The notes beneath the pieces are model-generated. The model was not told the origin of the DNA and did not search any database. It worked only from the letters and a program-made list of their open reading frames with translations. A DNA stretch of 64,000 nt from Marinobacter sp. SS13-12. Its GTDB lineage: Bacteria > Pseudomonadota > Gammaproteobacteria > Pseudomonadales > Oleiphilaceae. Of this stretch, positions 28,616 to 51,320 are shown in pieces. The stretch lies in contig NZ_JASSUA010000003.1 in assembly GCF_030227115.1 (NCBI RefSeq), forward strand, positions 1 to 64,000. The letters run 5' to 3'. Position 1 is the stretch's first letter. Each line of letters opens with the position of its first letter. The position numbers were made by a program, and so were the translations under genes.

Positions 28616-31153
<2,538 letters not shown>

Positions 31154-31171
31154 GCGTTCCAGAAGGACTAT

Positions 31172-31289
31172 GGGAGTGAGCGGGAACGGCCCTACGAAAA
31201 TGTGCGGAGCCATGGATGGCGGAGCTCAAGCGCACATGGATGTGCTTGTAGCGTTTTTCGTAGGGCCGTTCCCGCTCGCTCTTACTCCC
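31172..31289. repeat. Structured inverted-repeat element, copy A
   Basis: The outer arms pair over about 28 bases: 31172-31200 with 31254-31289 (core GAGCGGGAACGGCCCTACGA), with a 6-base insertion in the right arm. Inside are two perfect short hairpins with TGGA loops: GCCA/TGGC at 31209-31220 and GCACA/TGTGC at 31232-31245, joined through GGAGCTCAAGC. A second element at 50545-50650 has the same plan. It lies between kdsA and eno and carries no open frame of note. Origin and role are unknown; a REP- or MITE-like repeat or an RNA processing site is possible. Confidence 0.85.
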
Positions 31290-31297
31290 AAATTTGA

Positions 31298-32617
<1,320 letters not shown>

Positions 32618-49423: not shown

Positions 49424-50524
49424 ATGGCACAGATTTCACAGCACGCACTGGAAACCGCCGTAAAACAGTACCGTGATCCCTATCTCGCCAAAGATCTGTA
49501 CGAGCTGGGCGCCGTGAAATCCCTGACAGCTGACGACAGCGGCAAGGTCACGGCCATGATCGAGCTGCCATACCCCTCAAAAGGTATCGCCGGCGCGCTG
49601 AAAGAACTGCTCACCAATGCCCTGGACGACGTTGAAGGCGTTGAAAGCGTGGATGTCCATGTGGGACAGCGTATCCACTCCCACAAGGGCCAGAAAGACA
49701 TCCAGTCCGTGCCCGGCGTGAAAAACATCATCGCCGTCGCCTCCGGCAAGGGCGGTGTGGGAAAATCCACGACTGCCGTCAACCTGGCCCTGGCCCTGCA
49801 AGCCGAAGGCGCCCGCGTCGGCATCCTCGACGCCGACATCTACGGCCCCAGCATAGGCATGATGCTGGGTGTCCCTGAGGGAAAGCGCCCGGAAACCCGG
49901 GAGAACAAATACTTCGTTCCCATGGAAGCCCATGGCCTGCAGGCCAACTCCATGGCCTTCGTGGTCACCGACAAAACCCCCATGGTCTGGCGCGGCCCCA
50001 TGGTCAGTGGTGCCGTCATGCAGCTGCTGCAACAGACCCTGTGGAATGAACTGGACTACCTAATCATCGACATGCCCCCCGGCACCGGCGATATCCAGCT
50101 CACCATCGCCCAGAAAGTCCCGGTCACCGGCGCCGTGATCGTTACCACACCCCAGGACATCGCCCTGCTGGACGGCAAGAAAGGCATCGAAATGTTCCGC
50201 AAGGTGGAAATCCCGGTACTGGGCGTGGTGGAAAACATGAGCGTCCACATCTGCAGCAACTGTGGCCACGAAGAGCCCCTGTTCGGCCACGGCGGTGGCG
50301 AACGCATCGCCGAAGAATACGACACCACGCTACTCGGACAGCTGCCGCTGCACATGACCATCCGCGAACAGACCGACGGTGGTAAACCCTCGGTGGTGGC
50401 AGAGCCAGACTCGGAAGTGGCAAGACGATACAAGGACATCGCTCGAAGGGTAGGCGCTGAACTTTCTACCCGCGAAAGAAACCTGACGGGCTCTATTTCC
50501 AGTGTTTCCGTAACAGAACACTGA
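49424..50524 (+). CDS. apbC: Iron-sulfur cluster carrier protein ApbC/Mrp
   Basis: A 366-residue P-loop ATPase that carries iron-sulfur clusters. An N-terminal DUF59 (MIP18-like) domain (about residues 10-85) precedes the deviant Walker A ASGKGGVGKSTTAVN (about residue 108). The cluster-binding CxxC is ICSNCGH near residue 277. The start at 49424 has GGAG and begins MAQISQHALE; the open frame further upstream overlaps the metG side and is not needed. Confidence 0.95.
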   Translation: MAQISQHALETAVKQYRDPYLAKDLYELGAVKSLTADDSGKVTAMIELPYPSKGIAGALKELLTNALDDVEGVESVDVHVGQRIHSHKGQKDIQSVPGVKNIIAVASGKGGVGKSTTAVNLALALQAEGARVGILDADIYGPSIGMMLGVPEGKRPETRENKYFVPMEAHGLQANSMAFVVTDKTPMVWRGPMVSGAVMQLLQQTLWNELDYLIIDMPPGTGDIQLTIAQKVPVTGAVIVTTPQDIALLDGKKGIEMFRKVEIPVLGVVENMSVHICSNCGHEEPLFGHGGGERIAEEYDTTLLGQLPLHMTIREQTDGGKPSVVAEPDSEVARRYKDIARRVGAELSTRERNLTGSISSVSVTEH

Positions 50525-50544: not shown

Positions 50545-50650
50545 GCAAGAACAGGCAGGGCCTTCCGAAACTGTGAAAAACAAGGATGTTTTTCTCAAGC
50601 CTACATGGACGTATTAACGGCGTGTTTCGGAAGGCCTTGCCTGTTCTTGC
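50545..50650. repeat. Structured inverted-repeat element, copy B
   Basis: Outer arms of 27 bases (50545-50571 and 50624-50650) are inverted repeats with one mismatch. Inside, hairpin 1 is GAAAAACA/TGTTTTTC with loop AGGA (50575-50594), then TCAAGCC, then a short hairpin TACA/CGTA with loop TGGA (50602-50613). The order, loop sequence and CTCAAGC spacer match the element at 31172-31289, while the stems differ. It lies between apbC and dcd, on the transcribed path of both if read on the plus strand. Confidence 0.85.
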
Positions 50651-50753: not shown

Positions 50754-51320
50754 ATGAGTATCAAATCCGACCACTGGATTCGCCGGATGTCCCGGGAACA
50801 CGGCATGATCGAGCCCTTCGAGTATGATCAGGTCCGCGAAACCGAAAAAGGCCGCGTAATCTCCTACGGCACATCCAGCTACGGCTACGATGTCCGTTGC
50901 AGCAACGAATTCAAAATCTTCACCAACGTCCACTCCGCCACCGTGGACCCGAAGAACTTCGACGAAAACAGCTTCGTCAACTACACCGGCGACGTCTGCA
51001 TCATTCCGCCAAACTCCTTCGCCCTGGCCCGCACCGTGGAATACTTCCGTATCCCCCGCAGTGTACTGACCATCTGCCTGGGCAAATCCACCTATGCGCG
51101 TTGTGGCATTATCGTCAACGTCACACCGCTGGAGCCAGAGTGGGAAGGGCAGGTGACCCTGGAGTTTTCCAACACCACCAACCTGCCGGCCAAAATCTAC
51201 GCTAACGAAGGCATCGCCCAGATGCTGTTCTTTGAGTCAGATGAAGTCTGCGATACCAGCTATAAGGACCGCGGCGGAAAATACCTGGGACAAACAGGCG
51301 TGACCCTGCCGCGAACATGA
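50754..51320 (+). CDS. dcd: dCTP deaminase
   Basis: A 188-residue trimeric enzyme making dUTP from dCTP, feeding dTMP synthesis. Family features: [13 protein letters not shown], the substrate-binding [10 protein letters not shown] and catalytic Glu in [16 protein letters not shown]. The ATG at 50754 gives the same length as the Pseudomonas enzyme; the longer frame would run through repeat copy B. Confidence 0.96.

Follow-up and report, generated by a model that had tools for sequence, protein, structure and literature searches.

We find that the two palindromic elements of a 64,000-nucleotide stretch of the Marinobacter sp. SS13-12 genome (hereafter the window) are copies of a dispersed intergenic repeat, and that the TwoAYGGAY RNA motif, the sRNA Ysr224 and the YPAL/RU-2 repeat are linked with them as one superfamily. 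Our preferred reading, to which we give a probability of about 0.58, is that of a once-mobile repeat superfamily whose folded GGA strand carries two putative CsrA/RsmA sites, possibly serving as a CsrA sink, and whose core and arms have separate histories. As a class, the palindromic miniature repeat is ordinary; its novelty lies in the anatomy, in the signal on one strand and in how strongly CsrA sites are matched. New observations are a G.T excess in the arms, the decoupling of core from arms, outward-facing doublets, and the sequence ACANGGANGT in most copies. What had been an orphan RNA motif, a catalogued sRNA and a miniature insertion element now form one widespread family with a testable function. 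Should CsrA bind these copies, the repeats would form a genome-wide reservoir of sites for a global regulator, from 5 to 129 per genome in one genus. A copied core set against locus-specific, pairwise-corrected arms would also document, in natural sequences, template switching at palindromes.

The two window elements and their family

The original prediction described two window elements with a common plan, and both are present with slightly shifted edges (Table 1); TGTG, a WGGA loop, CTCAAGC, a TGGA loop, GCGT and the outer arm are seen in each. CTCAAGC did not prove to be a kept spacer, since many family copies have TCGAGC or CCAAGC there. The second hairpin of copy B lacks the four-pair stem ascribed to it, as an A.C adjoining the loop leaves just three clean pairs; in the minimum-energy fold of this copy, the hairpin 2 region is paired in another register. 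Copy A folds at -79.3 against a shuffle mean of -43.2, and copy B at -65.3 against -30.9, with 0 of 200 shuffles as good in either case. The pattern CTCAAGCNNNCATGGA, with 2 mismatches allowed, occurs 2 times in the window against 2.29 expected by chance, and both matches are exact; it is the structure, not the pattern, that stands out.

By Pfam, copy A is flanked by a kdsA-like ORF of the DAHP-synthase family (30295-31140) and by an enolase ORF (31322-32617), and copy B by an Mrp/NUBPL-type ParA ORF (49424-50524; its start is 49424 or 49160, depending on the ORF call) and a dCTP-deaminase ORF (50754-51320). We take the upstream neighbours to be kdsA and mrp. For each copy, both neighbour genes are in sense orientation.

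Table 1 Positions of the features of the two window elements and of a second palindromic family
Feature	Position	Strand	Remarks
Copy A, whole palindromic element	31171..31284	+	fold z -9.7; model R1 match
Copy A 5' arm	31171..31200	+	pairs with 31255-31284
Copy A 3' arm	31255..31284	+	pairs with 31171-31200
Copy A hairpin 1	31204..31225	+	hexaloop ATGGAT 31212-31217; GGA/GGA internal loop in stem
Copy A hairpin 2	31232..31245	+	GCACATGGATGTGC; hexaloop ATGGAT 31236-31241; includes ACANGGANGT
Copy B, whole palindromic element	50545..50650	+	fold z -9.8; model R1 match
Copy B 5' arm	50545..50571	+	pairs with 50624-50650
Copy B 3' arm	50624..50650	+	pairs with 50545-50571
Copy B hairpin 1	50575..50594	+	hexaloop AAGGAT 50582-50587
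Copy B hairpin 2	50602..50613	+	TACATGGACGTA; hexaloop ATGGAC 50605-50610; three clean pairs
Second palindromic family	L087:12013, L087:13357, L061:2020, L054:1644 and nine more		SS13-12 stretches

Some further structures occur in the window. Upstream of copy A, a short hairpin with a U run after it lies over the stop codon of the kdsA-like gene (31132-31148) and is terminator-like (z -2.6). The 3' flank of copy A forms an inverted repeat with the enolase ribosome-binding site (31286-31312), whose fold is only slightly more stable than those of shuffles (z -1.5), 13 of 200 of which did as well. A 5S rRNA at 158-273 is the sole Rfam match in the window at Rfam's own cut-offs.

A first pattern search of the SS13-12 genome gave 19 places, with 2 control matches; 17 of these places are long-armed, including one with a single hairpin, and 2 are chance. 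A covariance model (A2, then R1) was built from 12 of the pattern-found copies. R1 scores copy A, which is in its training set, at 111.1 bits (31174-31281) and copy B, which is outside it, at 81.2 bits; A and B are the only copies within the window. With 150 of 1747 candidates scored across the SS13-12 genome, R1 gave 107 matches in 106 places, and on the fetched SS13-12 stretches it gave 120 matches, which, less 13 on the opposite strand, are at least 107 distinct copies. The original prediction had allowed that a genome search might find only the two window copies; run here, that search found this much larger number. The general plan is a core of ~53 nt with two hairpins between arms of ~27 bp, which are locus-specific but pair with each other. 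Atypical SS13-12 copies include one without hairpin 1 (L086:4307), one with an insert of ~80 nt (L088:3574) and one with poor arms (L112:3124). A structured insert of ~80 nt at the same point of hairpin 2 was seen at L088:3574-3762, L244:4262-4448, L145, L165 and L170; occurring at several loci and in several genomes, it may be a nested element or belong to an extended form of the core. A search for truncated cores gave 138 half-core matches, none beyond the known copies, and a search of plasmids with one copy as the query gave no match.

Eight other genomes of the genus, searched at E 1e-6, contain 56, 88, 129, 5, 71, 33, 76 and 94 copies, and one genome from another family of the order contains 18. 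In a class sample at E 1e-4, 64 of 369 genomes and 57 of 272 genera had at least one match, but these matches are not copy numbers, because at most 10 candidates were scored per genome. A scan of named genomes gave at least 120 stretches, and among the matches listed are Marinobacter, Rheinheimera, Methylomonas, Stenotrophomonas and Yersinia similis. Three sets of copies were used for the counts below: 107 from SS13-12, 83 from three genus genomes and 50 from other families. By our own ORF caller, 0 of 107, 1 of 83 and 2 of 50 copies, respectively, lie inside ORFs. The earlier view of a dispersed, structured intergenic family in which structure rather than sequence is kept was right.

The folded GGA strand and its CsrA-type loops

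Among the 12 SS13-12 copies, 95.5% of cells pair, compared with 35-48% in slid structures, and 32 of 43 pairs show two-sided change, a level that 0 of 500 shuffles reached. An alignment of 51 matches from other families (one on the opposite strand), fitted to the model, has 96.6% of cells paired, two-sided change in 41 of 43 pairs, and 798 cells changed two-sidedly against 220 in shuffles. The paired stem substitutions on which the original prediction had staked its idea of structural selection are found, in massive number, both within the genome and in other families. Both loops hold GGA in 104 of 105 SS13-12 copies and 47 of 49 other-family copies; the position ahead of GGA can hold any of the four bases, and the one behind it is mostly T or C. 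Hairpin 2 of the SS13-12 copies has its hexaloop closed by a paired C-G in 104 of 104; the second pair of the stem forms in 103 and the third in 94. A register-free search for the longest stem, which located hairpin 2 wrongly in roughly half of all copies, put GGA in the hairpin 2 loop in 45 of 105 SS13-12 and 22 of 49 other copies; the fixed-register loop count is preferred, and this result of under half indicates that an alternative register competes at hairpin 2.

If the double-stranded palindrome alone were constrained, the loss of one partner of a G-C pair should yield G.T and A.C mismatches equally often on either strand. The arm mismatches of the GGA strand, however, are 139 G.T to 13 A.C in total (228 of 240 copies used), with 65:6 from SS13-12, 52:5 from the three other genus genomes and 22:2 from the other families. 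The ratio is 33:4 for copies antisense to both neighbours (12:4, 13:0 and 8:0 by set) and 44:2 for sense copies (26:1, 15:0 and 3:1), a difference that is not significant (p 0.40). A second palindromic family, which occurs in the same genomes and served as internal control, gave 17:12 (11:7 and 6:5; 14 of 17 copies), and the contrast between the two families is clear (Fisher p 4e-5). The G.T excess, whatever the direction of the neighbours, argues that the constraint on the GGA strand acts on a single-stranded form, either RNA or ssDNA. This one-strand excess also supports the selection on structure proposed originally. The constraint would most simply act on RNA, although ssDNA would likewise favour G.T. 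The second family, which has the core GGTGTCTGAGCGMAGCGAGTTC in long locus-variable arms and no strand asymmetry, gave sub-threshold microRNA matches only in an Rfam scan of one copy.

The ssDNA option leads to a rather unlikely alternative, a purely DNA-level selfish repeat in which the GGA strand folds during transposition by an HUH-type or other transposase reading both loops, with no RNA role. Such a repeat would account for the orientation-free intergenic spread at 5-129 copies within one genus and for the presence of the asymmetry in antisense copies as well, and YPAL is described as mobile in passages of a review (PMC2229807). It would also suit the doublets: copies less than 400 bp apart are in minus-then-plus order, facing outwards, in 36 of 36 cases (11, 22 and 3 by set), which share genomes and are not independent; two further outward-facing doublets lie at L334 and L341. 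We rejected local duplication as the source of the doublet members, as their cores exceed random pairs in likeness in SS13-12 (0.80 against 0.66) but not in the genus sample (0.77 against 0.76). Against a DNA-level repeat, no dedicated transposase was found beside the copies when Y1_Tnp was searched in the SS13-12 genome, the second palindromic family lacks the asymmetry, and the variable base in ANGGAY together with the match to ACA..GGA.GU is what CsrA requires.

The original prediction had overlooked the fit of the GGA loops to CsrA sites, as it had the existing family names. Passages of PMC7652899 give RUACARGGAUGU as the SELEX consensus of CsrA, in which ACA and GGA do not vary, and ANGGAN as the hexaloop bound by RsmE. 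The GGA strand carries the heart of this consensus, ACANGGANGT, in 90 of 107 SS13-12, 82 of 83 genus and 40 of 50 other-family copies; the sequence occurs 0 times on the opposite strand of copies and at 11 sites outside them in 726 kb. The exact 12-nt consensus is found in 4 of 107, 0 of 83 and 16 of 50 copies, respectively. The combination of ACA, GGA and GU in a hexaloop hairpin, which characterizes CsrA-type sites, is present in the family, while the alternative register competes with it. The two A-N-GGA-Y hexaloops of each copy are thus predicted CsrA/RsmA-type sites, and a transcribed copy, having two such loops, would bind one CsrA dimer. Many copies could jointly act as a CsrA sink, and from the sequences we infer that this is the best-supported function of the repeat copies. 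As copies are nearly orientation-free, the GGA strand of many would perhaps be transcribed only from antisense promoters or promoters of their own. CsrA-binding had been proposed earlier for TwoAYGGAY RNA by Gardner and co-workers, according to passages of PMC4333381.

CsrA is encoded in the SS13-12 genome and in 59 of the 64 element-bearing genomes of the class sample. Among near-complete genomes, it is present in 51 of 52 element-bearing genomes against 280 of 314 overall (p 0.013), a weak co-occurrence that is confounded with lineage and genome size. Of the five element-bearing genomes without a CsrA match, four are 67-88% complete and one, G259, is 98% complete; the copy in G259 (L438:3201-3306) has kept both GGA loops despite the lack of a CsrA match.

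Separate histories of core and arms

The 105 SS13-12 copies have 93 distinct cores, and triplets with identical cores sit in clearly different arms. In 210 pairs with at most three core differences (79 copies; the pairs share genomes and are not independent), arm identity is above random in the four core-adjacent positions only, and from the fifth position outward it is near the random level, with the largest excess, 0.16, at the eighth position. Arm pairs at six orthologous sites, in 39 comparisons that share genomes and are not independent, differ by 216 two-sided and 25 one-sided changes. These coordinated two-sided changes lend support to the copying mechanism that had been proposed as one source of the paired differences. 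Fast arm mutation was rejected as the cause of unrelated arms, since most eno-site arms are identical in the nearest relatives: they are the same in 4 of 6, and the other two have one or three one-sided changes.

Paired arm replacement was found at dcd, L086:10372 and L086:14558. At dcd, the cores of SS13-12 and G016 are 0.98 alike while the arms differ by 15 two-sided changes and 1 one-sided change; L086:11744 is the converse case, where the core differs (0.59-0.67) within similar arms. The element at the dcd site of G012 (L165) is a chimera, with a left arm of one type, a right arm of the other, and no pairing between them; each arm type occurs paired in relatives. This chimera is possibly an intermediate of arm replacement. 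Core and arms have separate histories, with the arms replaced or corrected pairwise, and the copying of one arm onto the other, combined with core exchange, fits the observed pattern of arms and cores; the route would be ectopic copying of the core and template switching between arms. Insertion of cores into pre-existing long palindromes was rejected, as long empty targets are rare in the 726 kb of SS13-12 stretches: among palindromes with arms of at least 16 bp, with up to 2 mismatches allowed, 102 contain the element, 7 have a loop of at most 20 nt and 32 have a longer loop without the element.

The eno and dcd sites were compared in the best 30 of 61 genomes each. At eno, the core is in the SS13-12 direction in 17 of these, in the same direction with an insert in 1, opposite in 8, and lost or damaged in 4, and the pattern count scores the damaged L128 as present. 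The opposite direction requires at least five changes on the eno tree; the switch may be due to an inversion, to re-insertion, or to outward-facing doublets that lost different members. At dcd, the element is present in 28 of the 30 (two with the insert) and missing in 2. Among the sites examined, the empty ones look like deletions, because arm remnants or microhomology remain, and no fresh insertion with target duplication was found among the orthologous sites examined.

These data also bear on the suggestion of a local RNA processing or attenuation element, which in its general form would be a cis-acting element of neighbouring operons (terminator, processing site or attenuator) selected at each place. 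The copies avoid ORFs and are more frequent in convergent than in divergent gene gaps (76:27), each window copy has the same direction as its two neighbour genes, most of the best 30 relatives have an element at the eno site, and YPAL is said to influence upstream transcripts in passages of PMC2229807. We nevertheless hold this explanation to be improbable. Between tandem genes, sense and antisense copies are about equal, with 40:23, 23:19 and 10:16 by set and 73:58 in sum (p 0.22), although SS13-12 alone departs from equality (40:23, p 0.04; two ORF-caller versions gave 40/28/15/24 and 40/28/16/23 for the SS13-12 contexts), and both orientations carry the same strand signal. Given this near equality, and an eno orientation that varies between species with a core lost or damaged in 4 of 30, the local element is not supported. 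We likewise rejected an attenuator or terminator of kdsA-eno or mrp-dcd, as orientation is nearly free and the eno site varies in both direction and occupancy.

A more far-reaching version of the CsrA-sink reading, which we regard as rather unlikely and put forward tentatively, is a selfish or domesticated RNA-like repeat that copies only its predicted CsrA-binding core into or between locus-specific palindromes, with more than 100 sites per genome buffering the CsrA regulon. In the boldest form, the core may spread via an RNA intermediate and so be the bacterial equivalent of a SINE; the variable target duplications given for YPAL in review passages would agree with this.

Relatives under other names and neighbouring repeats

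Copy A matched TwoAYGGAY (RF01731) at 32.2 bits (E 0.0015), below the gathering score of 43, and copy B gave no match to it; copy B matched Ysr224 (RF02770) on the minus strand at 26 bits (E 0.0004; gathering score 70). At E 0.01, neither TwoAYGGAY nor Ysr224 was matched by any of 20 further SS13-12 loci. L180, a relative from another family, scored 45.2 bits with TwoAYGGAY, above the gathering score. R1 found two copies in Yersinia similis, at 54.8 and 50.8 bits, and the same places are Ysr224 on the opposite strand, at 126.5 and 129.9 bits (cut-off 70). The core of the printed RU-2/YPAL sequence (PMC2759123 Table 1b) aligns with the family core. Among the papers listed for TwoAYGGAY, Ysr224 and YPAL/RU-2, none was common to two of these names.

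TwoAYGGAY has the same plan of a same-strand pair of GGA-hexaloop hairpins within an outer stem. Its AYGGAY loops are matched exactly by copy A, but in the family the second base is variable and not Y alone, the Rfam outer stem is longer, and the window copies score under the gathering score; the repeat nature, locus-specific arms and strand signal are absent from the portions of the TwoAYGGAY descriptions compared. YPAL/RU-2 has the same core sequence and fold and is likewise dispersed, multicopy and intergenic, but is about 168 bp long with imperfect arms, whereas the family here is ~108-114 bp. Passages of a review (PMC2229807) describe YPAL as recently mobile, with target duplications of 3-26 bp at dyad targets, and it is from these passages, by analogy, that mobility of the present family would follow. 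In the present family, such target duplications were not seen, and the empty orthologous sites examined look like deletions with arm remnants.

The Ysr224 model in Rfam represents the strand without the GGA loops, and the SS13-12 copies are under its cut-off. Passages of PMC9029176 list Ysr224 among the most prevalent sRNA annotations, as expected of a repeat. A reading of every copy as an independent, CsrB/RsmZ-like sRNA gene under a promoter of its own seems very doubtful: the strand signal is independent of gene direction, the loops are CsrA-type and Ysr224 entered Rfam as an sRNA, but each copy has two GGA loops only, neither inspection by eye nor k-mers revealed a conserved promoter in the 5' flanks, and Ysr224 is annotated on the opposite strand. 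CsrB and RsmZ share with the family GGA hexaloops matching CsrA/RsmE sites (passages of PMC7652899), but each is one RNA with many loops, whereas here two predicted CsrA loops per copy are spread over many dispersed copies.

The label REP/MITE-like, given originally, was right as to class, the element being an intergenic palindromic repeat. According to passages of PMC3733652, GTAG REPs and REPINs are intergenic palindromes found as inverted doublets and at gene 3' ends; the family here differs in having no GTAG tag in its consensus, a length of ~110 bp and a two-hairpin core. With no GTAG tag and no RAYT link, membership in RAYT/REP families was rejected, and the suggested check for a linked REP-associated tyrosine transposase turned up two Y1_Tnp genes in the SS13-12 genome, with the nearest copy among the matches listed ~5 kb away. 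CGTC-tagged REPs were also rejected, the known ones having 8-9 bp stems and a CCA tail (passages of PMC3733652).

GTAG REPs are a separate family beside some copies. Within 120 nt, GTAG REP palindromes lie on the 5' side of 22 of 107 SS13-12 copies and on the 3' side of 1 of 107; the numbers are 9 and 0 of 83 in the genus sample, and 0 and 0 of 50 in other families. These REP/REPIN palindromes (GTAGGTCGGATTA...TAATCCGAC) are nearly all 5' of the elements, often between outward-facing doublets. The flanks of SS13-12 copies also carry weak motifs, ACTCCNAA(GC) just 3' of the arms and a TAACTC-like sequence on the 5' side, and these follow the direction of the element.
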